Below, one piece after another: positions 23,906 to 60,922 of a stretch of 64,000 bases of DNA. Below the pieces are notes generated by a model, which saw only the letters and a program-made list of their open reading frames with translations, was not told where the DNA came from and did not search any database. The DNA comes from Loxodes magnus. Lineage: Eukaryota; Ciliophora; Karyorelictea; Loxodida; Loxodidae. Positions within the stretch are counted from its first letter, which is position 1. Each line of letters starts with the position of its first letter. The DNA is taken from NCBI GenBank assembly GCA_946699065.1, contig CAMPDV010001576.1, positions 41,948 to 105,947 on the forward strand. The letters run 5' to 3'. A program made the translations under genes and the position numbers.

Positions 23906-23906
23906 T

Positions 23907-31260: not shown

Positions 31261-31439
31261 GCGCGCGCGAAGCGAGCGGTTGATTCTGTAAATGTTTTGG
31301 ACTATTTACTATATAAAAAATAAATATATATATAAGTAAAAAAATAAGAGTAAAAATAGTAGGATTAAAAAAAATAATATGGAAAAAATATATTAAAATT
31401 TACATAAAAAAGGGTTAGTTTCATGATAATTTTTTTTTA

Positions 31440-32310
31440 AAATTTTTAAGAGGAGAATTGAAACCAGAAACACTTTCTCTTTACTTAGCTTCATAAGTTT
31501 AATCCTCTTCAAACCAAAAAATATCAAATAAGTACAATCTAAAGAAATAATTCAGAACAGCAAAGTTCACTTAACTCTCAACACCTCAGTAGATACTTAA
31601 AAAAATAATATTCATCATAATCATTAAAAGTATTAAAAAAAGAAAATTAAGTAAAAATATACGATAATTTAAAATAGACCCTGATAATTTTGATTCATAT
31701 AATATTTAAATTGAACACTTGCACTCTTAATAGATGAAACAGCTAATTTATATACATAAAAACAACAGAAAAATCTTGAGGAGTAATTAAACTCATAGAA
31801 AGCAGAAATATTCGAAATAAGTAAAGATTTAATAAATCATGAAGATGAGATTGAAGAACTAAAGCTGGAATTTATGAAAGAATGAAAATATTAAAAAAGG
31901 ATAATTTAATAATGAGAGTAAGACGAGAAAAGTTTAGTAAAAATAGATTCAAAACTCAAATATACTTAAAAGCATTTGCAGTAGACTTCAAAATTAACCG
32001 CCATGGAAATAAAAAGAAAAGAACTAACATTTCATAGACTAAAAAAAAATAAAATATATTTGCATCATTATGTAAAAAAATTTGACGGAAAAACCAAAGA
32101 TATAATATTATAAGAAATAACATCTGACAAAAAATTAACTTCTAGAAACTGAAAGAAATAACTACATAATTTTACCACTCATAACTGAAAAGATTCAGTA
32201 GAAAGTATCAATATTTAAGATTAAATGCAGAACAGGAATAACTTCTGAGAAGAACTACTTATTCGAACAAAGTATTTTTACTTTTTAGCCGAATGGCGAA
32301 TTCTAAAAAT
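31440..32310 (+). pseudogene. Relic of the coiled-coil/zinc-knuckle insertion family
   Basis: In one frame about 31700-31870 reads LLIDETANLYTQKQQKNLEE followed by QLNSQKAEI and SKDLINHEDEIEELKLEF. This matches the central part of the element at 45909-46954, which has LLLEETADSSTY, then LEEEINSQKEQMFALSQDL and KNHEND. Upstream, TCACTTAACTCTCAACACCT also matches ACACAGCTCTCAACACCT in that element. The zinc-knuckle region (about 32040-32100) is too decayed to score, and no target-site duplication was found. Degraded copy; boundaries are approximate. Confidence 0.6.
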
Positions 32311-33445
32311 AATTTTCATTAGTATATTAAAGTGACGTCGTCTTTTTTAAGGTTTTTTAATAAAAATTTGTAGATTTTTATTCATCAACTATTTTTGAAA
32401 TGAGACAACACTGGCTTTTTTCTGAAGTATAAATCTTAAAGCATTTTTATTTTGTCCTCTTATTATGATTGGAAATCAATGTTATACTATTATCTCTAAA
32501 AATTTATTCGTGTATCTATAACTTTGAAGATCCTTAATGCATTTATAATCCTTCATATTGTAGCATCTTACGCTCTTGAGTAAAAATGAAATAAAAAATT
32601 TACATTTCACTTTCTGCTTCTTTGTTTATTTGATTTCTCCTTATCTCTGTTTAATTACTTTATCACGAATTTATGTTTTTTCAATGTCACCATCTAATTT
32701 CTATTATTTAGTAGAAGTGTAAAAACTAATTCCATTCTCCTTTTGACTCAATATACAACAATTAATGAGCTTTACATGCTAAATTATACAGAAATATGTG
32801 TAAAATTTATCTTAAATTTCATTGTATTAAATTAATATATTATCTATTTCTTAGGAATAGTTAATAATATAAATTTTGCTAAGAACCTAATACACTAATT
32901 TAATTACTATCATAAGAATATGACTAAGTAATTTAAACATCAAATTACATTTGATATCTTTATCTTTTAATTTTATAATAGAGGAATGTTGTTAGAAAAG
33001 TTTAATAAATACTGTACTGTTTAGTTGAAGTCGATAGCAATAAAAAGAATAAAAACTTTTAGCAATTATTATATAAAATAAATAACAGTAGATTAATATT
33101 TCATTTTTTGAAAATTGTATCTAATTTGAATTTATACTATGTTACTTTAACTAATTTGGAAATATCATTATTCATTTAAATTTCTAAATTATAAAATGAC
33201 TTTTAGTAATTTTTAAGAAAATGATTGATAAAATCAAAAAGCAAAATTGAAAAAATGTTTTTAATGGTGTCAATAAATTTATAAATAATATACTTCATTA
33301 TACAAGTTTAAAACAAAAAAATAAAAGAATATAAAAATCAATCTTAAAGAATAAATTAAATTTTACAAATGAAAAATAAGAAAGGACTAAAAACTCTTAA
33401 AAGTTAATCTAATTTAGACAAGTTTAAATAAAATTTAAAAAAGAG
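32311..33445. other. AT-rich intergenic DNA
   Basis: About 1.1 kb with no recognisable gene, RNA or ordered repeat. A coding-like fragment cannot be excluded in the first few hundred bases. Confidence 0.45.
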
Positions 33446-41185: not shown

Positions 41186-41205
41186 ATTACAGTATTTTCA
41201 TATAT

Positions 41206-41418
41206 TCAAGATATATTTAAAAATGGTCTTAGTTGTTCGAAGTTGAATAACAAGGGCATCTTCATCAGCGGTTCTGGAAGCTTTGTAACCGTAATCGACT
41301 TTAAGCCTTCCTCACTTTTGGTTGGCCTCGATGCTTCTGTTATTTTGACATTCGGCACTGGCTTTTTCAGTTTGTAATTCTGGAAATAAAAGTCAAATAT
41401 TTTTGCGAGATTTATCAT
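41206..41418 (-). CDS. Unidentified coding-like fragment, minus strand
   Basis: Right after the HSP70 break, composition becomes more GC-rich. One minus-strand frame reads like a protein tail: FDFYFQNYKLKKPVPNV, then TEASRPTKSEEGLKS and LPEPLMKMPLLFNFEQLR, ending at TGA 41206-41208. The frame continues upstream past 41418 without a clear start. No family recognised. It may be the 3' end of a gene facing the HSP70 fragment, or part of whatever DNA was joined at 41186. Confidence 0.45.
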   Translation of the reverse strand: MINLAKIFDFYFQNYKLKKPVPNVKITEASRPTKSEEGLKSITVTKLPEPLMKMPLLFNFEQLRPFLNIS

Positions 41419-41544
41419 ATGGTGGGATTTTAAGTACTCATAATTGACATATTTCGTCCTCTGCTATGGTTTTCAATAAGACGCAACCCTGCCATTTCCT
41501 TGATCCTCTAACAAGTATTAAAGATTACGAGTGATCTGAAATTA

Positions 41545-41632
41545 TATCAATATTGAACATATTTATCAGTACTGATAAATTATAGCAGTATTGAACATCA
41601 TTTATCAGTATCTGATAGATTTATCAGTAACA
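41545..41632. repeat. Cluster of TTATCAGTA palindromic motifs
   Basis: Three ATTTATCAGTA motifs occur within about 90 nt, two of them in longer palindromes (TTTATCAGTACTGATAAA, and CAGTATCTG followed by ATAGATTTATCAGTA). TATTGAACAT also occurs twice. Short, clustered, imperfectly palindromic; possibly a protein-binding site or element end. Function unknown. Confidence 0.7.
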
Positions 41633-41700
41633 ATCTTTCTTGTCCTTGAGAAACATTTTTTAAAGGGCTGCGCACCAACAAGTGTGCTACGATCTCTATA

Positions 41701-43017
41701 ATCAAATTTATTTATTTATTATTTATAAGATTTTTTCATTTTAAACTCTAATATTTTTTTTAATAAATGCATTTTGAGATTTATATAAGAAAATATCTTT
41801 TTTTTTTCAGTTTGGATTTATTTTCTTTTTTTTGTTTATAAATTCTTATTTAATAAAGTAGTCGAGAACTTCTATATTTTTTTTAAAGTATTTTTTTAGC
41901 TATATTTTAATTTCAAAGTCGAAATTTTTTTAAAAATAATTATTAATTTATAAATTTTAGTTTCTTTCTGAAGCTTTTAACTAACTGATTATTTTTTAAT
42001 AAGTTTGAAGATTAAGTAAGATATGTTTATTTATCTAAACAATTATTAAAGTAATTATTAAAATAAAAATCAGAATATAAATACTTAAAAGGTGATTTAT
42101 GTGAAAAATAGTTAAACAAAGAATTAATTAATAAGGTAAATAAAAAGGCGTTAAATCAAATAAAAATAATTCCTAATATAGATTTAAAATTATAAATTGA
42201 GGTATTGAAAACGATATTTTTTCTATTCTTCTGATTTTTGTTTTATAAGGGTTTTTTAATTTTTTTCTGTATAAGTGTATCATATTGAAGAAACTTAATT
42301 AAAAGATCGAAATTTAAAAAATTAATTTTGCTTAAGATTTTGAAAAGAGTTAAAAAAATAAAAAATTGTAAAATATGTAAAACAAAAATGATCTGTAGAT
42401 ATGATAATAGATATAAATAATGTTTAATAAAAATCGTTAATAAAATTCCTTTTTAAATTGAAAATATAATAGCATTATTCCTAATCAAATTATTTTAGAA
42501 TTATGAGAATTAAATTATATTGAGTAATTATTACTTGCTAGAACCTATACGTTATTAAAAAAATTAAAAAATTGAAAATTTCAACTTTTTATTAAAATTA
42601 TTCATCTTATCAAAAAATTTGCCATGCATTTCAGGCAAAAATGAGATTTTACAAATTATTGCAGGAAAAGATTAGAAATTTTATAAAATTGATATCAATT
42701 TTTAAAGATAAAATATTGCAGCTATTGATTAATCAATTATTTTAAAAGTGTGTTGCTTGCTAGAAATTTATAAAACTTTTAAAAAATAATAGTTAGTATT
42801 TAATAGGTTAATGCATATTTTTTGAACGAATAAATAGATTACGAAGAAATTTAATAATTAGTAAAATAATATTAAAATTTTTAAATAGCTAAAATAAGAT
42901 ATTAAGATTAAAATATTCAAATAAAATTAAATTGATTTAGAGTTTTATTAAAATTTTAAGACTAATATAATTAATATAATTAATTTAAATAAAAATAATA
43001 AGAATCAGATAAAAGAA
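41701..43017. other. AT-rich DNA 5' of the Helitron coding region
   Basis: No recognisable gene. One frame just before 43018 reads with Glu/Lys/Arg-rich sequence and may be part of the Helitron N-terminus. The Helitron 5' end (usually TC) cannot be placed. Confidence 0.45.
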
Positions 43018-44230
43018 ATGAAGCAAATAAGAATTTTAACAAAATAAAAATTAGAGAAAAATTCAGATTAAAATAACAAGCAAAGTTCATAAATTGCTAT
43101 TTTAGCAGAAAATAGACAAATTTATTAAAATTTAGCACACAATATTTAAGTTAATTAAATAAAACAATCTAAATATAATGAAAACAGAAAAAATGTTGAT
43201 TAATTTTCAGTTAAAACAACAGTTATTAACTAAGTTAGAATAAAAATTTATAAGAGATCAAATAAAGTATATTATTTTAATAAGAATAATTAAATTTTAA
43301 AAATTAATAAGCAAATTTTTTCAACATAAAATAAAGCAACTATGCTATTTCCTATTTTATTTCCATTTGGATTAGGAGTCCCGACTAGTTAAAATAGATT
43401 AATAGAAGTAAATTATATGGAATTATTTAATCATTTAATTTGATTTAGATTTAATCTTGCTTAAAATTATGGATTTTTCTAATTTTTTTTTTTTAAGCAT
43501 AACTGAAATATCGAAAAAAAGTTGAGTTTATATGTTAAAACAAATCAATTAAACTAAAAATTTACTTTGTAATAACTTAAATAAGTTTTAAAATAAGATT
43601 TTCAAAAATATTCGAATGAAACTTTTACTTATAAAAACAAAGTAGTAGCAAGTAAAAGCTTCTGGCATAGTAAAAATATCGAACTAATGCAATTGCAAAA
43701 AGTAAAAGGACTTCCAACTTTATTTATTACATTAACATATGATAATTTATGATAATCATTTTTGATTAAAAATATTTTTAATGCAAATAAAGACAACAAG
43801 AAATAATTAAGGAGTATAAACTTAAAATAACGAAATAAAGTTAGTAGTTATTTTGATATTTTAGTATAATTAATTTTAAACACCTTATAGCAATGGGTTT
43901 TAATAGATTGATATTGATTTAAATATGAATAATAGAATAGAACGCCAAAACATAATCATTTATTAATAAAATTTAAAAACTGCTTAGATTGTTTTGAATA
44001 GACTTAATATGTTAATTAAGAAAATGCAGAAATTTGTTCGGAATAATTCGAAATAAAAAATAAAATAAAATATTAATAAAAAAATTTGAATAAAGAAGAA
44101 AGTAAGCTTATTAATAATTTAAAAGAATTAATAAAACTAAAATAATTAGCTAAATAAAAGCTTAAAATATTCTATGATTTTTTATTTGAATTTGAAGTAC
44201 AAGTTGATGGAAAAAGTCAATAAAGAAGTA
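43018..44230 (+). CDS. Helitron Rep region (Helitron-like N domain and HUH motif)
   Basis: One frame from ATG 43018. LFPILFPFGLG at 43345-43377 matches the start of the Helitron helicase-like N-terminal domain. SKSFWHSKNIELMQLQ and GLPTLFITLTYDNLW follow, as in Rep proteins where PTxFxTLT precedes the catalytic site. WYWFKYEQQNRTPKHNHLL contains the metal-binding HxH (HNH, codons 43951-43959), corresponding to the WxRxEFQxRGxPHxH segment of the family. The Trp in DNLW and both Trp in WYW are TGA. The catalytic Tyr motif expected downstream could not be identified with certainty. The start is provisional. Confidence 0.82.
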
Positions 44231-45639
44231 AAAAAATAAAATCATTATATAAATTAATTTAATAATATTTAAGTTTAAGATAGAGATTATGATTTATTTA
44301 ATATTTTATAATTCGTGTAGAAATATAAATGCGTGATAAATGTTTGAAAATAAAGAAGAAAAATAATAATGTAAATGGAGAGTTACTTTAAAAAATAATT
44401 AAAAAAACCTAATTATTAATTAAAAATAATACTAATAAAAGCAAAAAATTTAATAGTAATATGATAATTATTTTTTAAGAAAGAGTAATTAAAAAATATA
44501 TTCCCTTATTTAAGACCTTTACTATAATTTTGAAGATCAAATTGAAAATTTTAATTAATTTTATAAGAAAATAAAATAAAATAATATATATCTAAGTTGA
44601 AAAAAGAAAAAAGCTAACATAAACAAGACAATAGTTATTTAATAAAAGTTAGTTAAAAAAATTACTATTTTTAATATATTTTTAAATAAAATTTAATTAA
44701 ATAGAGTGAGTAAAATGATTATAGTATTACAGAAATAATTGAAATTTAGATTAAAAAAATTATGGTTGTTCTCACTAAATAATAAAATTTAATTGAGAAA
44801 ACACAAAATAATTTAATTAAAAAAATGAAGAAAATACATTAATTTTAACAATAATAAAACTGCAAATTATTATAACTAAATTGATAATAATTTTTTGATT
44901 TTAAATAAAATAATAATAGATTATTATGCTTAAAGAATGCAAATTTAATATATAGGAACTTAATTTAAATATGCTAAAAATTATACAAGTTTAGAATAAA
45001 TGACATGTTACGAGTTTTGTATAAACTTTCTAATAAAAAATAAAAAATAGTATAAAGAAAAAACAATTTGATAAAATAATAGTATTGCCTATGCCGTATA
45101 TTTAGAAAATAATATAATTACGTAGTAAAGATAAATAGCATAAAGAAATCTCTTATTATAAAAAGTATTAAAAATATAAAATTGCTAAAATTTATATGAA
45201 AACAATAATTTGACTTAAGAATAAAAAATTTAATTATGAAGCTTATATGAAAATAGTTAGTAGTTTTTAAAATTCAAGTTTAATTATCCATATATTTAAA
45301 CATAATATTTAAATTTTTTATAGAAAATATTTAACAATAGTTGAAAAGAAGTAGAAGAAGAAAATAAAGAATAAAAGAAAGATTTGATAAATGAAAATTT
45401 AGAAAATCTTTTTATTTTTTCTTAATTTTAAAATTTGATTCGAAACTTTTAAAATAAGTAAATGAGTAAAACATAATATGATTACGAAAAAATGCTTAAA
45501 AAATAAAATTGAATTTAAAAATATAAAGAAAATAATAAAAATAAACTTAATTTAAAGTAGAAAACTTAAAAAATTATCAGAAAGATAATATCTTATAATG
45601 TAGTATATTTAAAAATGCATATAATGTAAAATAAAATTT
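44231..45639 (+). pseudogene. Helitron middle region, frame unresolved
   Basis: Between Rep and helicase the sequence keeps the length and composition of coding DNA, but the best frame changes repeatedly. One frame has FVQKYKCVINVWKQRR near 44310, roughly where Helitrons carry Cys/His-rich sequence. No single uninterrupted frame or Tyr-containing KY motif could be followed. Either this part is decayed or it contains short introns. Confidence 0.5.
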
Positions 45640-45895
45640 AATGCAAATTATTATTACTAGGATCTGCTGGTACTGGAAAATCCTTTTTAATTAAGAAAAG
45701 AATAAATTTTAATGAAAAATGAACTAATAAAATACGAAAAAACTGGTAAAGCTTCAAAAGCAATTGACGGAGTTACCATATATATTTTACTTAATCTGCC
45801 AATAGCTTGTAAATTTAAAGATTTAACATAAAAGTAATTAATGAGAATAAAATTTAATTAAAAAATATAAATTGAATAATAATAGATGAAATAAC
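45640..45895 (+). pseudogene. Helitron helicase, 5' part (motifs I and II)
   Basis: LLLLGSAGTGKSFLI (Walker A GSAGTGKS at 45660-45683) is followed after a frame change by KTGKASKAIDGVTIYILLN. That matches the TGKAAxxIxGxTIH segment of PIF1/Helitron helicases. IIIDEITMLNT (Asp-Glu codons 45885-45890) is motif II. The reading is cut immediately afterwards by the insertion that starts at 45909. At least two frame changes lie inside this short region. Confidence 0.8.
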
Positions 45896-45908
45896 TATGC
45901 TAAATACT
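45896..45908 (+). repeat. Target-site duplication, left copy (13 nt)
   Basis: TATGCTAAATACT, repeated exactly at 46955-46967. The two copies bracket the 1046-nt insertion. The sequence belongs to the helicase reading frame (TMLNT). Confidence 0.88.
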
Positions 45909-46954
45909 AATTAATCATTAATCATTAAAAAAACTGTTCGGTTTCGGCTTAATTGAAGTTTTAAATGTATAATATCTACGTTCCTGCATATTTGTTCCTT
46001 GCATTGCTTTTTTTCCTTGACTTCTTTCTTTTATATAATCTGAGTTGAGAATTTATTTTTTCTTACAGATTTTCCTATTTCCCGATGGGAAGAACTCCGT
46101 CGCTTGTTACTTTAGTTGCTATCAGTTAACATTTCTCCAGATATTCATTCTTATTTTTTTCTATTTGGGACATTTTTGCCATAAATATCAAGTGCTGTTG
46201 CAAATGTAGCACCTTTTTCTTGTTCATTGAAATGTCTTTTATTGTTTCTCTATTTCCATTGGAGTTCCTTATGAAAATTTCAAAGGTTTTCTTCTATTAA
46301 TTGATTTTTGAATCTAATTTCAATCAGTTTTTCTCAAATATTATTCTCTAATCTTACAATTTGATCATAAACTCCGACTTTAACTCTTCGGTCTACCATA
46401 TGGATTTAATAATCATTTTCATGATTTTTCAAATCCTGACTTAATGCAAACATCTATTCCTTCTGGGAGTTTATTTCCTCTTCGAGTTTTTTTTTGTTTC
46501 AAATAAGTTGATGAATCAGCTGTTTCCTCTAGTAAGAGTCCATTTATTCTATATCCGTATTGTCTAAATCAAAGTAATAGGATCTATAAAATTATCTTAC
46601 TTTACCTTCTTCATTTATTTTTTATTTTTTCGTTATTATTTTTATTGATTCAGTTGAGTGACCACTTTTTTTCAGATTTCAATGTAGGTGTTGAGAGCTG
46701 TGTTAACTTTTCTGTTCTGAATTTTTATCTCAGTTCTTACTTGTTCTTTAATGAGAGAGATCCGCTTTATTTTAGATTGTGGAAATTAGTATTATTTATA
46801 AGTTTTTCTAATATATAAGATAGTTCTGGTTATTTTTATTAAAAAGAGAGTTAAGTTGAAGAAGACGTGCTTTAGAATATGCGCTTTTGTTTTTCTCTCC
46901 TATTCTGAGGAGGTGGTAAAAAACCTTTCTTGAAGCCAGCCATTTTATATTATA
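45909..46954 (-). mobile_element. 1046-nt insertion carrying a coiled-coil/zinc-knuckle ORF
   Basis: This segment sits between exact 13-nt direct repeats inside the helicase, between motif II and motif III. When the insertion and one repeat copy are disregarded, the host helicase reads from DEITMLNT directly into IDKRLQQINEKEK and then GDFSQLSPV. That is the normal spacing of PIF1-type enzymes. The element is almost coextensive with one minus-strand ORF. Its ATG (46941-46943) is 11 nt from one edge and a TGA (45915-45917) is 6 nt from the other. There is no long terminal repeat, terminal inverted repeat or poly(A). TSDs of 13-14 nt fit target-primed retrotransposition better than cut-and-paste, but this is inference. 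Confidence 0.87.
45915..46943 (-). CDS. Gag-like protein with coiled coil and CCHC-type knuckle
   Basis: From ATG 46943 one frame of 343 codons runs to TGA 45915. It starts MAGFKKGFLPPPQNRREKQK. Near the C-terminal third it has the knuckle KRCYICNSTWYLWQKCP (Cys codons span 46170-46211, C-x2-C-x4-Tyr-x4-C). The His of a canonical CCHC is Tyr here, a single-base change (CAT to TAT). It continues with basic sequence such as EFFPSGNRKICKKKQ. In the middle, a +1-shifted frame (LEEEINSQKEQMFALSQDL, KNHENDY) is the better coiled coil and is the one conserved in the relic at 31.4 kb. The shift falls at an A9 run. Probably a slightly damaged gag-like ORF; no polymerase domain is present. Confidence 0.7.
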
Positions 46955-46967
46955 TATGCTAAATACT
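46955..46967 (+). repeat. Target-site duplication, right copy (13 nt)
   Basis: TATGCTAAATACT, identical to 45896-45908. The helicase frame resumes immediately after it. Confidence 0.88.
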
Positions 46968-48399
46968 TAATAATAATTTTAAATTGATAAAAGATTACAA
47001 TAAATAAATGAAAAGGAAAAGAATTACGGAAATTTAATATAATTTTTGTAGGAGATTTTTCTCAGTTGTCTCCAGTTAAAAGTATGCCTATATTTTCAAT
47101 AAAATTAAATTAAAAAGCAAGCAAAAAGATATAGAAAGATCAATTTGATTAAAAAAATAAATGTTATATTATTTTTAGAATAATAACTACGATAAAAAGA
47201 TTATATTTTTATAACAAATATTATAAGATAAAACTTGGTGAAATTGATAAAGAATTATATAACTATTTAGAAGGAATTTTTTAGCAAAAATTTAATTTAG
47301 AAGATTTTTAAGATTAAACTTGTGTTTTTAGTATGAGAAAGGAAGCATAATCTCATAATTTAAAAATTTTATAAAGCTTAAATAAATCAATTTTTGAATC
47401 GAATTTGAAAATAAAGGTAAAATTTAAATGAATTATTAAAATTAATTATAAGGACCTGAAAATATTTATTTTTAAGTATTAATGCTTTAATTATAATAAC
47501 TGAAAATTTAAATATTAAATCTGGATTAATAAATGGAGCCACAGGTTTCATAAGAAATATTAGTTGATAAGATAAAGATTAGTTTTAACACTAATTACCA
47601 TTAATCTATTAATAAAATTTGAAAATTATAAAGGCACATCGCTAAAATAATTAACTAAATTTAAAAACAAAAATAAAGAATTTAATAATTTGGTGCCAAT
47701 ATTTCCTGTAAAACATAGCTTTACGCTCGATGACATTTAATATAATAGAACATAATTTCCTTTAATATTATGCTATGCATAAACTATTCATAAATGTTAA
47801 GGAACTACCATTGAAAAAAATGTTTCATTGTTATTGGAAATAGTAAGTTCAGTAATGGCTAAACTTACTTAGCTGTTTCAAGAGTTAAAAATAAATAGCT
47901 TTTATAATTAAAAGAATTTATGATTAAAAGAATTTTAAACATAATAAATACGAAAAACTTTGATTAGAGAATTTAGATTGAAAATTAATTAAGAAATCAA
48001 TAAATTAAATTAAAAAATAACTTTTTAGAAATAATTAAATTATTAAAATTTTAAGAATATTAAAACTTTCAAAATAGTCATTTTTTCTATAATTACAGAA
48101 TTATAAACAACATTACATAGTCTATTGATTATATAAATTAGTAAAATTAGGTAAGTTAAATGAAAAAACTACAATAACTTATAAAAATGAAGATGATTGA
48201 TTTTTAATTAATTTAAAAAAGTTAAAAAATGAACTAATAAATTTTGAAATATTTAAATAAAAAAAAGAAATAAAATTAATAAAAACGAAGATCAAATAGA
48301 CTTTTTTTAGACTTAGCAAAAGCAAATAAAATTTAAGATAAAGTTTCTAAAAAATTTAATAATCCTAAAATTTGAGAATAGAAACTGAAATTGTATAAG
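46968..48399 (+). pseudogene. Helitron helicase, 3' part (motifs III to VI)
   Basis: NIIFVGDFSQLSPVKSMPIF (GDFSQLSPV from 47051) is motif III. TCVFSMRKEAQSHNLKIL, GLINGATGFIRNI (from 47523), PVKHSFTLDD and NRTQFPLILCYAQTIHKCQG (QTIHKCQGTT around 47780-47809) are the conserved C-terminal helicase blocks. NGQTYLAVSRVKN (to about 47892) matches the final GQxYVALSRV motif. A one-base frame offset in AAATTTAAT just before motif III, and further offsets later, break the frame. The last 450 nt are Lys/Gln-rich and unassigned. Confidence 0.85.
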
Positions 48400-48413
48400 A
48401 ATGCTTCTTTAAT
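48400..48413 (+). repeat. Target-site duplication, left copy (14 nt)
   Basis: AATGCTTCTTTAAT, repeated exactly at 49363-49376. The two copies bracket the second insertion. Confidence 0.87.
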
Positions 48414-49362
48414 TAATTAATTTTAACTATAAGGATTAGGGTCATCTTTAATTATAGGAAATGTTTCCTCAAATTAAAAACAATAAAAGTTTTTATATTC
48501 AGAACTCAACTGTACATGTTTTCATCTGAATCAATTTCAAACTGAGATAATTCTTCTTTCTCTTCAATAAGCTCATAGAATTGTTCTTCCATCTTCTTGT
48601 AATTTTTCTCCAGCCTATCTAAACAAATTCTAAGGTCATTGTTGTCCTTTTAAAGCTACTTATTCTGTTACTATTAATTACCAAGATCCTGTTTGATTAA
48701 TGTCACACTTGAATCATCTAATATCAGCTTCTTTCTGTAAATACCTCCAAAGTAGATACAATATAGCCTCCTCGATGTTCCAAATTATTTACGGTGCTGC
48801 TCAAGCACTCTTCTTCACTCGGACATTACCTCCAAAAATTTCCAGCCTTTTGACAACAATAGCAACGTTTTATTAAGGGCTTGAATTAAAATTTTATTCT
48901 GTTTACATTTTTTCAATTTCCATATTTTCTGATTGAAGTTAGTTTTTTTTGATTGGTAATCGAATTTCTTCTTTAATTTTCTATTGATTTGCTTCTAGGT
49001 TTTTTTCTAATAGTTCAAATTAGGAAGTTAAGGCTTCAATTTAAAACTAAACTTTACTTACCAAATCTTGATCTTCCTTTTTTCTATCTTACAAAAGAAG
49101 CCGAAGATTCAAGTTTTCCGCCTTCAGGATCTATATCTCGGTATTCATTTTTTCAATTAATGAATAAAGCTTAATAATGTCTTGATCGTGGGATTTCTCA
49201 AGCTTTTTCAGTTTGTTAGGAAATTCCGTATTTCCCAATTCTTAACAGGAGTAGATTTATCTTTTTTGAATTCTTGGTTCTTGTTAGTTAACTGAGACTT
49301 AAGATTGATCTTTAAGGTTAGAATCCAAGGTTTAGATTCTCTAATTTTTCCAATTTTTTATT
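48414..49362 (-). mobile_element. 949-nt insertion with a second coiled-coil/zinc-knuckle ORF
   Basis: Flanked by exact 14-nt direct repeats. Across the joined site the host DNA reads on in a coding-like frame (LYKNASLIKLIFKK). The cargo is again a minus-strand coiled-coil ORF with a 14-residue knuckle, ending at TGA 48506-48508. Its orientation relative to the Helitron is the same as in the first insertion. No terminal repeats or poly(A) were seen. The two insertions share architecture but not obvious nucleotide identity, so they are distant members of one family. Confidence 0.83.
48506..49350 (-). pseudogene. Gag-like coiled-coil/knuckle ORF, frame-shifted
   Basis: N-terminal coiled coil: KLKKLEKSHDQDIIKLYSL, then EKMNTEIQILKAENLNLRL and QFELLEKNLEANQQKIKEEI. 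Knuckle: RCYCCQKAGNFWRQCPSEEE (Cys codons span 48823-48864, C-x2-C-x4-Asn-x4-C), with Asn where CCHC has His. C-terminal coiled coil: DRLEKNYKKMEEQFYELIEE, with the last residues FEIDSDENMYS before TGA 48506-48508. The three parts are in different frames, so there are at least two indels or unrecognised introns. No ATG was found at the 5' end. Confidence 0.68.
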
Positions 49363-49376
49363 AATGCTTCTTTAAT
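49363..49376 (+). repeat. Target-site duplication, right copy (14 nt)
   Basis: AATGCTTCTTTAAT, identical to 48400-48413. Confidence 0.87.
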
Positions 49377-51050
49377 AAAACTAATATTTAAAAAGATAAA
49401 AATCTATATAAAAAAAGAATGTCATAGACGTTAATAAGAATAATGAGAATTATTTAGAAGAATATAATAAAATTAAGAAAAAAGCAAACTAACATTAATA
49501 ATAGTAACTAGAAAGTCCAGAAAATTAATTTATAACATTTTATAATCCAAACTCTTGATGTTGATTAAATTCCTTTATCGCAATTCTATACAAATTAGAT
49601 AAATTTAAAGCTAGATTCTTAGAATATTAAAATATAAATTAGTCAGAAATTTTTTAAGGATTTTTATCATATTTTAAATTAGAAAATGTAAAATATGATT
49701 CTTAGTCAACTTAAAATAATGAATATGTGATAATTGCTAAGATTTTAATTCAGAATAATGATAAGATTAATAAGAAGCAATTTTTTTATCTTTTAATAAT
49801 TAAGTTTTTTTTGGAGAGATGATAAACTTATTTTTAAAATATTTAAATATTTAAATCGTTAAAAAATAAATGCTAGAAATATTAGATTTTCAATATAATT
49901 AAGATTGAGAAAATTATAAAAAAGAAATAAATAGTCCTATGATTGATTAATTTGCATTACTTTTTTAAATACTACTTAATGTTAATAATGTAACTAAAGT
50001 TAAATTATTATATATTTTTCTTATTTTTGAATATATATTTTTACTATCTAACTCTTATTCAAAAACCAGAGATTAAATTTTTTTTTTATTATTAGGAATA
50101 TTTTTGAAGAATAGAAGTGATAAAGGTAAAATGAATAAAGAGTTATCAATATTATAAAAGCTTAACATAAAAAGCATAAATTACTTAAAATAAACAAATA
50201 TAATTCTTGTTAATTCGATTTAACTTTAAAAAATATTATTTTAATTCTAATTAGTTTAATATTTTGTTTGGTTCTCTATATTATTAAATATTATGTAATT
50301 TCATTGATTTATTCTGACTTTCAAACTCATTATTAGATTCCTATGATTATACTTATCTACAAAAAGCTTTATTTTGAATAGATAAAAATAAATTCACTTA
50401 TTCATTTATAAAATTAAAAAGACAGGTTCTAAGCTAAAAAAACTATTCAGAATAACTTAAATTTTGAATTCATAGATAGATTTGTATTTATAGAGACACA
50501 AAAGTAATTTAAAGTAAATGAACAATTAGCATAAGAGTCTTCTTAAGAAAACCTAATAAAATATTAGCTATTAGATTAATAAACTACCAAGCTTATGAAG
50601 AAAACACTTTAAGCTAAGGTTATTAATTAAATAAATTTAAACTAAAAATAATTAAAGTTGGAAATATTCATTGGAATTAGAAAAAATATTAATGGTAGAT
50701 AAATTATTCTGTATCAAGGAATGAAATAAGAAATAATTAAATTTTGAAATAAATAAAAATAAACTGAAAAATTTGCTTTAACAGCATTAATACTAAAAAA
50801 AGTGGAGCAATCGTTTTGTTTTCATCTAAAAATGAAAAAATAACTAAAGTAAATTAAATTTTTTACTATATGAATCTCTAAGTAAATATATAAATCCAAT
50901 AATTTAATTTGATTGAATCTTTAGCGGGGACTTTTGCATATAATTGAGATTAAATAAATGCTTCAAGTTTCTTCAGATTAGATAAAAACAATTAAGTTAA
51001 AATTAGATATATTCTAGAATTTATAAAGTTAAATTTTATAATTATCCTTC
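49377..51050 (+). pseudogene. Possible Helitron C-terminal extension with a Cys-protease-like motif
   Basis: Coding-like sequence resumes after the second insertion. NPNSWCWLNSFIAILYKLDKF (Cys codon 49559-49561, both Trp from TGA) resembles the catalytic Cys box of papain-fold deubiquitinases (general form NxxCxxNSxxxxL). At 50720-50960 one frame has LYQGMKQEIIKFWNKQ, GAIVLFSSKNEKITKV and LIESLAGTFAYNWDQIN. Some protist and animal Helitrons carry OTU-type cysteine proteases, so a protease extension would not be surprising. No matching His box was identified, and this may equally be an unrelated gene. Confidence 0.35.
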
Positions 51051-53880
51051 TTTATTAGCTAAATTTTAAATATAAATGAATACATTAAATAATTAAAACA
51101 TTAGAGTTAAGTAAGGGAATTAAATAGTTATTATTATATTAAATTTGAATCATTCTTATCTTATAAAATCTTAAATTTTGGTAATTCTATCAACTCCAAG
51201 AAGCTTATAAAATTATTATTTCCTTATAAATTATTAAACTTTTTAATTTTTAGATTACTATGTTTTTAAAAATAATTAGAAACTTTCGAATTCATTTTCA
51301 ACTAATTTTGATTCTAAATTCTTAAAGATAAATTTAAAAACTATTTAAATGTTTTTGTTTGTTTTTATAATTATTTCTTCCTGCAGTTTTCATAATTTAA
51401 TTCCACTTAGAATATATTAAAAGAAACTTTTATATTTTAACTTTAGTTTCTTAATAAAATATTTTTTCATACTTACAAAAGAAAATATTTCTGATCAAAA
51501 CCTTAACGCGTTATTATAAACTTAAGCTAAAATAAATTCCCTTTATTTTATATTTTTATCAATAAATAATTAATTTTATCTAATTATTACAAAGAAATAT
51601 ACAAATCACTTTATAGCTTTATCTTATTTTCTCAGACAGACTAATAAAAACTTAGTATTTCTATATAGTTTTCTAAATTTGAGAAATAAATAAAAGTTTG
51701 TTCATATTAAATAACTTTAAAATTATAAGAAGGTATTTCATTTTTGTATCTAAACTTTATAAATAAAATTACTTGATTGATATCATTATAAAGAAGTTAT
51801 TAAACTGGTTATTAAACTTAGCTAATTATAACAAAACTGTTTTAACAAATAATTATAGAGTTTATAAATTAAATCAAGATTTTAATTAGCAAAAGTATTT
51901 GAAAAAGCTAAGCAAAATATTTTAGCTTAACTTTTAATTTTTTTATTCTTTGGATATAAATCGTATGTAATTTCATAGGAATCACTTGATTCCTTTTATG
52001 AATAAATTTACCTAAATTATTGATTTACAAGGAAAAAATGAGATTTTAAATATAATAAAATTTCTAAATAACTATTACTGGATATCTTTAATAGTACTTA
52101 TTACTTTTAGCATAAAGAAATAAAAGTTTATCTTTAAACATTTTAATTTGAGTTTTATAAAATTGCTTTATCTTTTATTAAATCATAAAATGCATATTAT
52201 AGTAAAGACAAAAATTTTATATATGATACTTTTTCTTTATAAAAGCTTATGAAAATAAAATTTATATTTGCATTGTTCCTAAAAGAAATTAAATTTTATT
52301 TAATTGTTTATATAAATAAATTGATTGCATTCAATTAAATATTAGGCCTATTTTACTTTAAATAGATTTAATTAAAAGAAGCAACTTAAACTGTCTCAAT
52401 CTTTACTTTCTTCTTAATCGACGTAAACTACAGCTAAATTATTTTCTTAATTTCGATTCCTAGTGACAATTTACTAATGTTGTGTTTCATTCTTAAAATT
52501 ATTAATTTTCTTTCGTTAATTTTCTCTGTCTAATGCTATTTTGAATAATTTCGTGATTTTGAAGAAATTTTTAAAGGTTCTTGCTATTGAAAATTAAATT
52601 AAAAAATTATATTATAATTGTAAAGCAAGTTTCTTAGTAAGTTTTTTTTGGTTTTTGAAAATTTCATCTATAAATAAAATTTGAATTTACATGATTTCAA
52701 GAGAAAGAATATAAATATAATAAAAGCATAAAGTAAAAATAGATTGAGAGAAAGGAAGTATATAATAATTACAATATATATATTAAAAATTAATTCTACT
52801 CTCCTTTTAAATCTAGCAATTATACATTTTAGATGATTCTAATATAAAAATATAGAAAAATTCCAAATTATACTTAGACTAAGTTATAATTAATAATTAA
52901 TTAGTTTTGTGTTTTAGAAAATTATTTTAAAAATTCTGTTGAAAATAAAAATTTACTGTTTTTTATAATTTTTATAGAATATCTTAATCCTTTAGGAAAA
53001 ATTATAAATATATAAGGATTTAAAAAATGTTTAGTAAATATTAAGAGTTTAATTATATTTATTATTTATGACCTTAGTAGTTCATTCAACTCTTAAAAAA
53101 TATTAGTTAAGGTATTATATATAAATTTATATTTAAATTTATTACGATTTTCCTTTCCTTTTTTATAACTTCATTTAAATAATCTTATTGCAAAATATTT
53201 AAATTCATCTTATTAATTAAATTATAAAAATATATTAAAACACATAATTTTATAAGCTTCTAAATTTAGTTTCTCTAAAGTTTTTTATTTTAACTCTTTT
53301 TTAATTTTAATCAGATTTAAAATAATAAGCTTATATTTGAATAAAATACTGACATCTATATTTTTTAAAACAAATTTGATTTTTAACAAAAAAAATTTAT
53401 GTTTCATTAGTGTTATTTGAAAATATTGATTCTATTATTTTATTTCTATAAGCAATTAACATATTTTTCAGTTAAAATACATAAATTATTATGAGATTTA
53501 TTTTCTTGTAATTTAAAACAAAATGCTTTAAATATTTTTTTCATTATACAAATTTTTATTTTTATTTTATTCTAAAATAATTTTTAAACATCTTTCAATA
53601 TTTAAAAATAATTGAAGTGACAGATTTGTCTATAAACGTTTGCAAATTTAGGGTATATTTGGAAAATTATTAAATGGATTTAACATAATACAAATTTACT
53701 TTTTCTTATATTAAAAATTATTCTAAACTTGCTTTTCTCAAATATAAACTAAATAGGTAAGAGGTTTTATAAAAAAAATTGAAAAATTATTTAGAAGGAA
53801 TCGTATTTTTAAAGTTAGCAATATAAGCAATCTTAGTAAAGAAGAAATATATTATTTTATTAAAGTATTTATAATTTTAA
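51051..53880. other. AT-rich intergenic DNA
   Basis: About 2.8 kb with no protein motif, RNA gene or ordered repeat that I can support. The Helitron 3' end should lie in or before this stretch, but no convincing CTRR preceded by a GC hairpin was found. Confidence 0.45.
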
Positions 53881-53881
53881 A

Positions 53882-55330
53882 AATGAAAAGTTCTTGTAAA
53901 GAGTCTCATAGACAAAGGATAACTCTCATTTAAGCAAATAAATCATCTTCTATGAACTTTAAAATATATAAAACAAAAATATTAAGGATAAAGCAAAGTA
54001 CAAGAGTTTGAAGGAAGAATCTAAAATCTTATTTCAATCACTTAGTACAAAGAATGAAAACCCATAATCAACTAATTTCAGAATTGAGTAGATGAAATAA
54101 AATTCATTCATTTGCTAAATTAACTGAATAATTATTTCTTAAAAGTATATCATCGAATGATTCCATTTATGTAACCATATACTCAGCAGCGAAATTTCTA
54201 AACTTAAATGAAGAAAGAAATTCTGGTATTGCAAGAAATATAGACACATTTTAAGATAATGCTGAAGATTCTAAAAATAAGAAATTGAAAATTTTAAGAT
54301 ATAGCAATCAATAAGCAGTCTACACTGTATTTCAGAAGATTTATTATATTATATATATAAAATTGCATCTAAGAAACAATAAACCTCTTTAAAAATCCTA
54401 ATAATTAGCCAGACCTTGCTAACGAAGATTATTTGCTAAAATTAGACAATTAGAACCTAACAAAAGAAGTTTAAAATCTTAAATAAATAATCTAATCTCA
54501 AGGCTAACAATTAACAATTTGCCAAATGAATAAAATCGTTAGAAACAATAAAAATAGCAGATATCTTCTTTATAAACGGAAAGATAAATAACTAAATTGA
54601 ATGAAATTTAAGACAAAAGTTTTACCAGAGGATCAATTAACTAGAACAAATCCAAATTAATTAACGATCAGATCCAAAAACAAGAGGAGTACAGAACAAG
54701 TCTTTCTCCTATTTGAAAATATAAAAAAGATGTTGATATGTAAAAAGCACGGACATAAGGTAAACCAATGCTATAAATTAAAGAAAAATAATACTATGAA
54801 ACAAAATGAGGAATCCAAAATCTATTTAAGATCTATTGCCCACCAAACGGAAGATTTTATAAAAAAAAGATTTTAACCTTACTTAGAAGCTCCAAAGATG
54901 TCACACACTCTGAGACAACTTGTGAGATGACAAGTAGGATTTGATTTCCAAGTACTAGAAGAGGAAAAAATAGATAATTTATAAGAATTTACGATCTGGA
55001 AAAATCAGATGAATATGATATCGAAGATTTGTGATTAAAAAAATTTTTACAAGCTCAAATTCTGTGATTAACCAAATAAAGGTGAGATCACTTTAATAAA
55101 TTATGTTATGTTATAAAAAAAAGATATACAAAGGGAGTTAATCTTAATGGATATTGAATTTAGCAATAAAGAAAAAAACAAGAAAAGGCTTGGAATCGAA
55201 ATAGAATGAAGCAAGATATTTGTAATTTAAAAGAAATAATGCAGCAACGATAGATAAGTATTTAAAGAAAAAGATATAAACTTAGATTTGAAATATAATA
55301 TTTAACACAAGAAATAAACTTTAAAATAGT
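53882..55330 (+). pseudogene. Gag-like coiled-coil/knuckle ORF, copy at 54 kb
   Basis: ATG at about 53882 begins MKSSCKESHRQR. Coding quality then alternates between frames: KYKSLKEESKILFQSLSTKN near 54010, and NLTKEVQNLKQIIQSQGQQL near 54460. The knuckle at 54731-54771 reads Cys-Trp-Tyr in one frame (Trp from TGA) and Cys-Lys-Lys-His-Gly-His-x4-Cys in the next. The two are one base out of register. Taken together the spacing is C-x2-C-x4-H-x4-C and includes a true His. It is followed by EESKIYLRSIAHQTEDF, LRQLVRW and IQRELILMDIEFSNK. Same architecture as the two Helitron insertions. No flanking duplication was found. Confidence 0.6.
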
Positions 55331-55981
55331 GATGAGCCTAATGGAGGTGGAATCATTATAATTCATTATTATTATTATTTAAAAAATTTAAACTATAAAA
55401 TCATATGGTCTTCAAAGACTTTATTTAAGAGTAGAATAAGTATTTCTAAATTTATGTTTTAGTTCTTTATTATAAAATTGCCACAAAAAAATGTCATAAG
55501 AAATACTAAAATTATTTTTCTAAACTTAGAAAAGCAGGCACAAAGGGATTAAACAGGTATCGTAAGAAATTAATTTATACATAAGCATCTATTGTTTCTC
55601 AAAAATTCTCATAGATGGAGCAAATAATTTTGCATATGGGAATATCTAGATTTTACGCTTGAAAAAATAATTTTTGAGCAGTTAATAAAAATATAAATAA
55701 ACTTACGTGAAGAGATCAAGCATTTATGGAAAAAAATATAAGACTTATAGATAATTTAAGCAAAAAAGAAAATAATTCAATCTAAGTTTGTGTCTTAAAA
55801 AATAAATTTTTACGCTTCACAAGCTTGTAGTAAAATAGTAATAAACAATGTAACTTCTAATCTCAATAATATATAATAAAAATATATATCAATAGAATGG
55901 TAGTTAAATAATAAAGAGAACTGATCTACTAATTTTAAAGATAGAGTTAAAAGGCCATTTAAATTGAAATTTAAAGAAAAA

Positions 55982-56819
55982 ATGGAATAATAGGTCCGTC
56001 TTTCAAAAAACTAAATAAGGAAAACAAGAAAGCAAGCGACGAAAGAGGAACTAAAAAAATAAAAACAATAATAAGAATCTAGCTCTTCACCTGAAGGAAA
56101 AATAATGATAGGTCCAGCTGAGTCAGTTAATCCACAAATTTAGAGTAACGACTTTCTTCAAGATTAAATTGAAAAATTGAAAGCAATGATCACTAAATAA
56201 GATGAAATGATATTCAATTACGGAGATCGAAATCGAGAATTTATGGATTGCATCGAAGATTAAAACAACGAATTAAAAATATTGAGAAGCTAGCTAATAA
56301 AAAGTAGTTTAGTTACAGAATAGTAATTATGAGAAATGTCATAATCAAATTAAATAATCTCAATGCATGATTATAGAAGAAAATCCAACCCAATTTTAGA
56401 ATACATAATAAAATAAACCTAGTTAAGAATAGGCAAGTACGGATTTAACTAAAAGAATTGAACAACTGGAAAATAAAATATTTAAAAAGAAGAACACTGA
56501 AAAATAAATAAAAAATTGTTGGTATTGCTACTCACGGAATCACTTACTAAGACTCTGCAAAGAATGAAAGAATTTACAGATAAGAGAAGAGCAGAAAACA
56601 TGAAGAGCTTTAAATAAACTATGGATTACTGAAAATGGAGTTTACAGACAAAAAACTTTTAATACGCAACAAAGAAAATTAACAATGGTAACCATTTACT
56701 TACAAAAAAGGTCGGGGAAGACTTATCACGTAAAAAAATGGTCTCCTGGTACCTGGTTGAAAGCCCAGGGATAGCGAACTTTTATTTAACACTAAGTTCA
56801 TTTATTATTATTAAATTGA
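55982..56819 (+). pseudogene. Gag-like coiled-coil/knuckle ORF, copy at 56 kb
   Basis: ATG 55982 opens MEQQVRLSKNQIRKTRKQAT, Lys/Arg-rich, then SSSSPEGKIMIGPAES and a coiled coil (FLQDQIEKLKAMITKQDEM). After a frame change near 56330 comes DLTKRIEQLENKIFKKKN. The knuckle is intact: CWYCYSRNHLLRLC (56517-56558, C-x2-C-x4-H-x4-C). The C-terminus is Trp- and Arg-rich, includes KTYHVKKWSPGTWLK, and ends at TGA 56817-56819. CCHC knuckles bind nucleic acid in retroelement Gag or ORF1 proteins. This copy is the best guide to the family because its knuckle retains the His. Confidence 0.68.
56517..56558 (+). other. CCHC zinc-knuckle motif
   Basis: Fourteen codons, Cys-Trp-Tyr-Cys, four residues, His, four residues, Cys. 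Same spacing as 46170-46211 (-), 48823-48864 (-) and the split motif at 54731-54771. Confidence 0.8.
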
Positions 56820-56829
56820 AATTGAAGTA

Positions 56830-58191: not shown

Positions 58192-58964
58192 GTCTTAAAG
58201 CATTTTATATAATATAAATTTATTTACTAAGTAAATTAATGTTTTTTCTTATAGACTTTGACTTTTAAAAATTTCCCTTCCTATATAAAAATTGTGGAGG
58301 ATTCAAAGTTTTTTATTAGATTCTTTGCATTAAATATAATACAATTTTTTCAATCCTAATATTTCTTACAGATGAAATTTCATTCTCATTTCCTTTGCTT
58401 ATTTCGAATAAATAATTAATTAGCTTAAATTTTATTTTTTCAGAGTACTTTTTTAAATAAAATAATGTTTATTATCTAAATATTAAATTATATTATGATA
58501 ATAATGGCTTGCTAATTAGCTAAATATTATAAAAATTTTAAATATTTATTTTAAACTTTGAAATAATAATAAAATAATAGATCTAAAAATAAAGAAAATG
58601 CTTATTCAATAATTTTTAATGTTATAAATCTCATAGTTTAAATTAAATATTTTAGCGTAAAATTAAACCCTTTTAATGTTATAACTAAACTATACTTAAA
58701 TTTTAAGTTTTATATTTAATTAACAAAATTATATAAAAATTAATAAATTTTTCAAAATTTAAAGAAATTTTATTTAAAAATAAAGATATCTGGAAATTAT
58801 AAACATTAATTAGCAATAAAATTTATTTACAAATTCTTATTTTTTTAATTTTTACTGAAATCAATTATATTAAAATTTTTATTTCTATGATAAAAAATAC
58901 TGAACACCATCGCCAATAAAAAATAACAAAATTAAAGAAAACAAGGTATCTTAATAAAGGATAA
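58192..58964. other. AT-rich intergenic DNA
   Basis: Nothing recognised between the small minus-strand gene and the duplicated unit that starts at about 58965. Confidence 0.45.
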
Positions 58965-58993
58965 AAATAAGTTTATAGCTTAAGAAGAGAACT

Positions 58994-59323
58994 TCACAGC
59001 TAATTTCCATTTTTTTTCTTCTCTCTTCTAAACTACAGAATTGCGTAGGACTTCATTAGTCCGCCATCCTCATCTCTTCCAAAATCCATTTGTCTTTCTG
59101 GATTCTTCTTCAATTTTTATTCTCTTCATTGATTCTTGGGTTATAAGGTTTGCTTTTGTATATTTATGCTGCTCTTGTTGGCGGAAGCAGAGAAGTTATT
59201 CTAAGATTTATTTCTTATTATTTCTTTCATTTTCTATTTTCTTTCTTCATTTTTTTCAGCAGTGATTTTTCTAACATATGTAGAGCCAAATCTTTGTACG
59301 ATGTAATTTTATCTTATTTGCAT
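58994..59323 (-). CDS. ORF-A, copy 1 (109 residues, inverted)
   Basis: ATG 59323 to TGA 58994 with no frame break. It starts MQIRQNYIVQRFGSTYVRK, then ITAEKNEERKQKMKEII, NNFSASANKSSINIQKQ and ERQMDFGRDEDGGLMKSYA. Copy 2 differs mostly at silent or Gln-synonymous sites. For instance, the Gln of NQWREQ is CAA here and TAA in copy 2, which supports both the reading frame and TAA=Gln. No family recognised; polar and basic, no membrane segment. Confidence 0.6.
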
Positions 59324-59377
59324 CTTATTTTTAGTATTAAGATTCGATTTCCATTGGAATAGTTGATTACTAATAAA

Positions 59378-59800
59378 ATGCTTTTTAAATTACTGCTTAT
59401 TATTATTCTTACTTTTCTTACAGTTATTTTATTTGCTATTAAAATTTATAAAAATGGAATTAAGACATTTGATTAACTTCATTGAATTATTTGTCAAATT
59501 CCTCTATTTTGATTACTTTTTATGATTAAATCTTATTAAAATTTCCTTTTATGGATGGAAGATATAGTCTAGTTATTCAATCAGATCAACTAGCATACTT
59601 TCTAGTTTTTCTATCCTTTGTTATTTTGGATCGCATTATAAGTTAGTTATTCTTTATTGTACTAATTATGCGTATGCTTCCTTAAATTATATTTCTAAAG
59701 CTTATTGAGACTTTTATTCAGTTAAGATTATTCTTATTTTTATGAATGAGTCAAGAGAAGACTATTTCTTAGATGTCCTTTTTATATATAATAACTGAAT
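59378..59800 (+). CDS. Hydrophobic ORF, copy 1
   Basis: From ATG 59378 the frame starts MLFKLLLIIILTFLTVILF, then IICQIPLFWLLFMIKSY and FYPLLFWIALQVSYSLLY, with several predicted membrane segments. It is a diverged paralogue of 60199-60670. FPLE, LTFLT, FYPL and SYSLL are shared with the second copy, and the arms of the inverted repeat separate the two. The 3' end is not clear. No family recognised. Confidence 0.45.
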
Positions 59801-59805
59801 AAAAG

Positions 59806-60670
59806 ATGTAAATAAGATGAGTTTACATCGTACAAAGATTTGGTTCTACATATGTTAGAAAAATCACTGCTGAAAAAAATGAAGAAAGAAAATAGAAAAT
59901 GAAAGAAATAATAAGAAATAAATCTTAGAATAACTTCTCTGCTTCCGCCAACAAGAGCAGCATAAATATACAAAAACAAACCTTATAACCCAAGAATTAA
60001 TGAAGAGAATAAAAATTGAAGAAGAAACCAGAAAGACAAATGGATTTTGGAAGAGATGAGGATGGCTGACTAATGAAGTCCTACGCAACTCTGTAGTTTA
60101 GAAGAGAGTAGGAAAAAACGGAAATTAGCTGTGAAGTTCTCTTCTTAAATTATAAACTTAATTTTATCCTTTTATCCTTTATTAAGATTTAGATTCAATT
60201 TCCATTGGAATGTGTGATTACTAATTTTATGATTTTTAAATTATTCCTTGCTATTATTCTTACTTTTCTTACAATTCTAATATTCGATATTAAAATTTAG
60301 AAAATTTGAATGAAAAATTAGAGGAACTTCATTAAATTATTTATCAATCTATTCCAATTTAATTACTATTTTCGCTTAAATTTTATTGAGTATTTTTTCT
60401 ATGGAAGAGAATCAAAGGTCTAGTTATTCAAACAATTTTTCTAGCATGTTTTCTTACATTTCTATCCTTTATCCTTTATCCTTGTTATTTTAATTTGTAA
60501 TGTTATTAGTTATTCGTTGCTACATTGATTATGCTTAAGCTTCCTGAGATAATTTTTTGCGAGCTTACTGAGGTGCTTATGCTGGTACGTTAGATTATTT
60601 TATTGCTTTTTAATAAATGAAAAAGAGAGAAATTTCTTAGAGTGCCGTTTTATATATATAATAATTTAAT
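59806..60670 (+). CDS. ORF-A copy 2 fused in frame to the hydrophobic ORF copy 2
   Basis: From ATG 59806 the first 110 codons match ORF-A copy 1 (KITAEKNEERKQKMKEII, ERQMDFGRDEDGWLMKSYA). A one-base loss near 60110 removes the ORF-A stop. The frame then continues without a break through LNFILLSFIKI into IFKLFLAIILTFLTILIF, FYPLSFILVILIC and ISYSLLHWLCLSFLRQ. Both halves therefore form one frame of about 285 codons. Whether this is the original gene or a chance fusion is open. The end is approximate. Confidence 0.5.
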
Positions 60671-60922
60671 AATAAGATGTAAATGCTATAAATTTATTTA
60701 TAAGGATATAAATCTTTTTTTGTTTTTTAAATACACAATATCTATTTTTTTAATTTTAATAGCTTTATTTTAAAGAAATACCATTCTCTTTTCACATTCT
60801 AATTTCATATTTTTTTAATAAAATTTACAAATATTAAAAGTAGATTCTCATTATTTAAATATTAATTTATATATTTAAGAAATTTTTATTTAAAGTAAAG
60901 TATAAAATTATTTAGCTTGCCT
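60671..60922. other. AT-rich intergenic DNA
   Basis: Short spacer between the hydrophobic ORF and the 3' end of the B-box/kelch gene. Nothing recognised. Confidence 0.45.

Follow-up and report, generated by a model that had tools for sequence, protein, structure and literature searches.

Introduction

Mammalian HAL1 is an ORF1-only derivative of a long interspersed nuclear element (LINE), with the first open reading frame (ORF1) of L1 and a poly(A) tail. In the Paramecium germline genome, seven elements termed 'solo ORF1s A–G' are described as likely mobilised in trans; three of them end in (TAAA)n, and their finger is said to resemble that of LINE ORF1s (PMC5405496). The Dictyostelium element TRE5-A.2 is presented as non-autonomous, without a whole ORF2 and apparently trans-mobilised by an autonomous partner (PMC5391098). 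Here, we analysed a stretch of 64,000 nucleotides from the karyorelict ciliate Loxodes magnus (contig CAMPDV010001576.1 of assembly GCA_946699065.1, positions 41,948 to 105,947 of the forward strand; hereafter, the window), which carries four units (elements 1 to 4; Table 1) with a gag-like gene for a coiled coil followed by a zinc knuckle and no polymerase. These elements are very likely mobile, gag-only and free of long terminal repeats (LTRs), i.e., of the non-LTR type. With a probability of about 0.83, they fall into several families of 'solo-ORF1' retroelements, non-LTR in type and non-autonomous, which likely borrow the endonuclease and reverse transcriptase of LINEs in trans.

HAL1 resembles these units in being ORF1-only and differs by its L1 ORF1 and its poly(A) tail. 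With the Paramecium solo ORF1s, the Loxodes elements have in common a ciliate host, a tandem-repeat end and the proposed mobilisation in trans, whereas the former were described from a germline genome and the latter occur in a karyorelict, in an assembly fitting a macronuclear one, and have other tails; furthermore, the Paramecium finger is LINE-ORF1-like, whereas for the protein studied here no match to ORF1 was obtained in the two LINEs that we read (PMC5405496 for Paramecium). TRE5-A.2 likewise lacks ORF2 and apparently relies on borrowed machinery, but it is a TRE5-A.1 derivative that targets tRNA genes (PMC5391098). An earlier reading made from the letters of the window (the sequence-only reading) had found no named family to match; the Paramecium solo ORF1s and TRE5-A.2 are, however, of the same kind. 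A literature search on Loxodes, LINE and zinc knuckle returned no paper, and the listings of further searches contained no account of the present families. What is new is that elements 2 to 4 lack a match to ORF1 in either LINE that we read, together with the number of families, the apparent youth of elements 2 and 4, and a leader common to element 1 and one LINE.

Genomic copies and their ends

Copies were searched in an assembly of 705,730,643 bases and 7843 contigs, in which the window corresponds to C1576:41948–105947; the macronuclear assembly of L. magnus is reported as 706 Mbp with many tandem repeats (PMC11441545). The 40 best first-look candidates per family were scored, out of 2791 (element 1), 1606 (element 2), 2417 (element 3) and 2361 (element 4); since scoring was confined to these 40, the counts given below are no measure of copy number. 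For element 1, the 40 copies (82–100% identity) started at query positions 1–9 in 38 cases and all ended at or beyond position 1035 of 1046. Those of element 2 (93–100%) started at positions 1–7 in 35 cases and all ended at or beyond position 935 of 949, and every copy of element 4 (95–100%) extended from positions 1–9 to 838/839. Each of these three listings includes the window itself and the near-identical contig C1177, and further listed copies lie in tandem or duplicated segments, so matches are not to be equated with independent insertions. All four elements are repeats with many copies and not single-copy host genes, a possibility that the sequence-only reading had kept in view.

The same reading had placed element 3 at 53882–55330, which proved too long. 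A query with these coordinates gave 44 matches, 38 of which covered only query positions ~458–1234 (40 of 2417 candidates scored), and we therefore redefined the element as window ~54339–55115; the window match in the copy analysis spans 54352–55114. The best repeat at the former ends was matched by 52 of 300 control placements. One copy of element 3 is inserted in a copy of the LINE termed LINE-A, where ATATCATATA is duplicated when judged against the uninterrupted LINE. The last ~55 nt of element 3 are also present, at 85%, within another unit (L045, reverse strand, 2185–2237), where they adjoin a LINE-type 3′ tail.

The units measure ~0.77–1.05 kb, begin ~5–20 nt before an ATG and end in family-specific tandem repeats, i.e., (TTAATGA)n in element 1, (TTAA)n in element 2, (TTATG)n in element 3 and (ATT)n with a varying repeat number in element 4. 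In the copies fetched from the genome, target-site duplications were scored as the best ungapped match between two flanks, with mispaired flanks as control. In the window, the flanking repeat of element 1 (13/13 nt) was equalled by none of 300 control placements and that of element 2 (14/14 nt) by 7 of 300; the repeat of element 4 (13/13 nt) is AT-rich and was equalled by 12 of 300, which is weaker support than for elements 1 and 2. The two duplications of 13–14 nt proposed earlier were thus retained, and a third one has to be added to the count. For the analysis of ends, 12 copies of element 4 and six each of elements 2 and 1 were fetched, and one of these 24 (L038) was dropped as its start was not found. 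Flank scores in the remaining 23 ranged from 7 to 18 and reached at least 10 in 21 and at least 11 in 20 (506 mispairings: mean 8.0, maximum 17, at least 11 in 29). Three copies (L032, L034, and L035) represent one insertion site, which inflates the tail of the control; counted as independent events, 19 of 21 reached at least 10. Scores below 10 were obtained for L056 and L061, and a score of 10 for L055. The duplications of elements 1, 2 and 4 are mostly 10–18 nt and variable in length.

An occupied and an empty site could be compared directly for element 1. Contig C161 contains a paralogue (96–97%) of window 45097–51049 with elements 1 and 2 inside, and additionally an extra copy of element 1 at which a 16-mer is duplicated, the left copy having drifted; the window holds the empty target site (Table 1). 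C161 and the window are thus an occupied/empty site pair. Between this paralogue (L064; C161:34500–43500) and the window, element 2 is 100% and element 1 ~93% identical, and this uneven divergence perhaps reflects gene conversion.

LTRs or terminal inverted repeats were not seen by eye in the aligned copies and end listings (no formal scan), in agreement with the sequence-only reading. Variable target duplications, ends without LTRs or inverted repeats and a tandem 3′ tail are features of non-LTR elements. A gag-like knuckle is also what gag-only LTR derivatives of the TR-GAG type would display, yet the lack of visible terminal repeats, the tandem 3′ tails and the variable duplications of up to 18 nt make these, or class II elements, highly improbable; LTR elements make target duplications shorter than 18 nt. 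The start of the units near an ATG and the target duplications would equally be expected from processed pseudogenes, i.e., copies that LINEs had made from the mRNAs of some few host genes for coil–knuckle proteins, without element-specific replication. We consider this improbable too, as the tails are family-specific tandem repeats and not poly(A), 1606–2791 first-look candidates (unscored) exist per family, and ends are constant within a family. Copies with matching ends, further target duplications among them, the occupied/empty pair and intact ORFs of elements 2 and 4 elsewhere in the genome bear out the proposal of mobile gag-only elements of roughly 1 kb.

Table 1. Features of the window that belong to, or are interrupted by, the gag-only elements.
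Feature	Position	Strand	Basis
Element 1, gag-only, 1046 bp; coiled coil and CX2CX4YX4C knuckle, frames broken	45909..46954	-	Flanking-repeat ends and genome copies
Element 1, target-site duplication, left, TATGCTAAATACT	45896..45908	.	Flank comparison
Element 1, target-site duplication, right	46955..46967	.	Flank comparison
Element 1, zinc knuckle, CYICNSTWYLWQKC, first W = TGA	46170..46211	-	Pattern scan
Old relic of the element 1 family	31443..32330	+	Alignable to element 1 over this span
Empty target site (16-mer) for the extra element 1 copy of C161	52069..52084	.	Paralogue comparison
Helitron relic interrupted by element 1	43432..47900	+	PF14214 and motifs; right limit approximate
Element 2, gag-only, 949 bp	48414..49362	-	Flanking-repeat ends and genome copies
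Element 2, target-site duplication, left, AATGCTTCTTTAAT	48400..48413	.	Flank comparison
Element 2, target-site duplication, right	49363..49376	.	Flank comparison
Element 2, zinc knuckle, N for H in window copy, H in L053–L056	48823..48864	-	Pattern scan
Element 3, gag-only	54339..55115 (approx.)	+	Span common to genome copies
Element 3, knuckle remnant, first Cys lost in window copy	54739..54771	+	Translation
Element 4, gag-only, ~830 bp; starts few A before ATGGA, ends (ATT)n	55977..56810	+	Genome copies
Element 4, target-site duplication, left, TTAAATTGAAATT	55959..55971	.	Flank comparison
Element 4, target-site duplication, right	56811..56823	.	Flank comparison
Element 4, zinc knuckle, CWYCYSRNHLLRLC	56517..56558	+	Pattern scan

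The coil–knuckle protein

TAA and TAG were read as Gln and TGA as Trp, including the TGA positions inside the knuckles; the TGA after DMYS in element 2 was taken as a stop codon. TGA as Trp is well supported in this genome, and a host gene presumably has TGA where the kelch motif has Trp. As this code leaves all frames open, an open frame alone proves nothing. The pattern CX2CX4[HYN]X4C occurs three times in the six frames of the window (elements 1, 2 and 4), compared to 0.07 expected from 100 simulations of 15380–64000. Four ORFs had been assigned the same knuckle spacing; this applies to these three, and the window copy of element 3 has lost the first Cys, whereas many other copies of element 3 keep a CWYCX4HX4C knuckle with CWYCKKHGHKVNQC or a sequence near it. 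In copies L009 and L012 of element 1, the knuckle pattern recurs with one residue changed.

By eye, the translation of each of the four window copies changes frame at or near the coil–knuckle junction. Elsewhere in the genome, element 2 has an intact ORF of 283 amino acids (L053, L054, and L056), and the ORF of element 4 is uninterrupted over the 239 amino acids compared (L033, L034, L036, L039, and L041); these copies were picked because they read through, and others (L042, L052, and L057) shift frame. An uninterrupted frame was thus found for 283 residues in element 2 and at least 239 in element 4, and none of full length was established for elements 1 and 3. Elements 2 and 4 appear to be young.

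Among the four elements, no mutual DNA match was detected (z −1.0 to 2.3), and they therefore constitute several families and not the single one assumed before. At the protein level, hhalign returned probabilities of 50% for elements 2 and 4, 40% for elements 2 and 3, and 21% for elements 3 and 4 (comparison without element 1), which is at most suggestive of kinship among the three. A further gag-only family, with a coil–knuckle ORF that includes CYVCNKQHQWKYC, is found adjacent to the LINE of L031 (reverse strand from ~5500); its second copy (L020:6496–7337) is 89% alike and has an open ORF of 231 amino acids. Element 4 and L020 are 49–50% identical in amino acids, with nonsynonymous (dN) and synonymous (dS) divergences of 0.41 and 1.22–1.30 over 244 codons and a dN/dS of 0.32–0.33, three comparisons against a single copy that amount to one independent contrast. 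Mismatches between the element 4 copy L036 and L020 were distributed as 88/68/121 over the codon positions. The ratio speaks for selection on the ORF between lineages, not within copies.

Homologue searches with element 4 and intact element 2 gave no hit at E ≤ 10, in a predicted-protein database that may hold little in this code, and scans of viral contigs yielded neither a confirmed relative nor a copy of the array. Pfam matches to the ORFs of the window were weak and all below cut-off. Of the gag proteins scanned, PF00098 was listed only for L019 (10.8 bits; cut-off 20.8), and zf-CCHC_4 reached 16 bits in L021 (cut-off 27); the residue pattern as such is present. Structure prediction for a piece of element 4 was uninformative (mean predicted local distance difference test score, pLDDT, of 38.6).

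LINEs as candidate machinery

No reverse transcriptase was found in six frames of window 38001–62900 and 15380–25379 (1–15379, 25380–38000 and the last 1.1 kb lay outside the scan), as the sequence-only reading had stated. LINEs with reverse transcriptase abound in the genome: the best 150 of 3403 candidates from an RVT_1 profile search were scored, and all 150 exceeded the Pfam cut-off. We read two LINEs, LINE-A (L031; ~5.5 kb to the 3′ end) and LINE-B (L051 and L044). In each of them, ORF1 closes with CX2CX4HX4C and an endonuclease–reverse transcriptase ORF2 is present, as read from translations with only RVT_1 identified by profile; the two ORF1s are 31% identical. The LINE ORF1s read here are not coil–knuckle proteins. 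Published Loxodes LINEs are reported to contain RVT_1 and Exo_endo_phos_2 (PMC11441545) and, unlike the gag-only units, carry ORF2. LINE-A may be one of them, and they are likely the machinery that moves the gag-only elements.

Each unit could alternatively be a HAL1-like deletion derivative, i.e., the ORF1 of a LINE family minus ORF2, with full-length parents that have the same coil–knuckle ORF1. The non-LTR hallmarks are consistent with this, as are the knuckles of CCHC type at the end of the LINE ORF1s read and a leader shared by element 1 and LINE-A (83% over 83 nt, E = 1.6e-17), which lies upstream of the LINE-A ORF1; the LINE-A slice ends at this leader, and its 5′ end is beyond view. 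However, the ORF1 of LINE-A or LINE-B and the proteins of elements 2, 3 and 4 gave hhalign probabilities of ~0.1% or less (element 1 was not in the comparison), and gag-element DNA had no match inside either ORF1. A longer relative with reverse transcriptase, which would have tied the units to a known retrotransposon, was not found in a search that was not exhaustive. By eye, none of the 164 listed gag places was followed, in the next 6 kb of its own strand, by one of the 150 reverse transcriptase places, a comparison of low power as both lists are partial; one copy of element 4 (C910) lies 4.3 kb downstream of a reverse transcriptase, which is the wrong side for an ORF1. On the two LINE families read, we regard the HAL1-like origin as less likely than not, and a parent may exist in another LINE family.

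For the reading as several solo-ORF1 families moved by LINEs, the movement in trans is likely, as inferred from sequence features. Folding placed a 3′ hairpin ahead of the tail in both LINE-A and LINE-B, and less pronounced hairpins were obtained for elements 4, 2 and 1. The 3′ end of element 3 (copy L005) resembles that of LINE-B around CCAAATAAAGGTG, with a score of 43 compared to 16–23 in 11 other pairings; the stem halves are GTGAT/ATCAC in element 3 and GTGGT/ACCAC in LINE-B. A 3′ hairpin common to both is suggested by these data.

Several observations weigh against this reading. Over 24 copies of element 3, the similarity to the LINE-B 3′ end was uneven, with a median score of 29 (17–46); among 960 shuffles, 35 attained this level, and the highest scored 37. 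The GTGAT/ATCAC stem was predicted in 16 of the 24 (counted from folds). For elements 2 and 4, no shared LINE end was found. Many copies of element 3 have only short or indistinct flanking repeats, differences among its copies revealed no codon pattern (24 copies, nine windows, p 0.20–0.89), and many copies shift frame after the knuckle, due to either shared decay or two overlapping frames. A Pfam scan of the gag proteins gave no zinc-knuckle match above cut-off. Moreover, the listings favour full-length over 5′-truncated copies, the best matches being the longest. Finally, mobilisation itself was not observed.

In the mechanism that we propose, the element would bring its own RNA-binding protein and borrow endonuclease and reverse transcriptase from a LINE in trans. 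The element RNA would be translated, and the coil–knuckle protein would coat it; a LINE-encoded protein would then bind the 3′ end of the RNA, nick the target and copy the RNA by target-primed reverse transcription. A more specific version is tentative and falls somewhat short of even odds: a guild of protein-coding relatives of short interspersed nuclear elements (SINE-like retroelements) with at least five lineages (elements 1 to 4 and L031/L020), whose coil–knuckle protein would be the ORF1 of no LINE and would be selected for packaging its own RNA, with termini that recruit LINE endonuclease and reverse transcriptase.

Other features of the window

The relic proposed as a fifth relative (31440–32310) indeed belongs to the family of element 1 by alignment (70% over 319 bp); a target duplication was looked for at the flanks of 31443–32330 and none was found. 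Shortly before it, (AAGGAGA)n is present in 115 perfect copies (30453–31259). Element 1 itself interrupts a Helitron relic, with a PF14214 match at ~43432–43969 (E = 7.8e-10; 39.7 bits, cut-off 28.9). We take it to consist of a Rep-type domain followed by Pif1-type helicase motifs on either side of element 1 (motifs by eye). Loxodes repeats classed as helitrons were reported to be without the expected domains (PMC11441545), unlike this relic (43432–47900) and its above-cut-off match.

A repeat of ~0.5 kb (41195–41727; copies in L019, L023, and L025) has an end matching the 3′ hairpin and tail of LINE-A and is either SINE-like or a chimeric LINE tail. One end of the window (1–15379) is occupied by ~107 copies of a 144-bp unit (15 kb, 97% matches) with strong G skew. 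Three arrays of a 138-bp unit in both orientations (27418–36597) presumably encode MORN-like repeats. An inverted repeat of ~385 bp (94.5%; 58956–59339 with 60172–59789) lies within 58956–60684 and adjoins a direct repeat.

Implications

Most interspersed repeats of L. magnus are given as unclassified in the literature (PMC11441545), and the gag-only families may account for some of them. These retroelements keep a gene but no copying enzyme, in a ciliate without extensive DNA elimination detected, and two of the families look young. The benefit that a non-LTR element derives from coding for an RNA-binding-type protein alone therefore becomes testable here.

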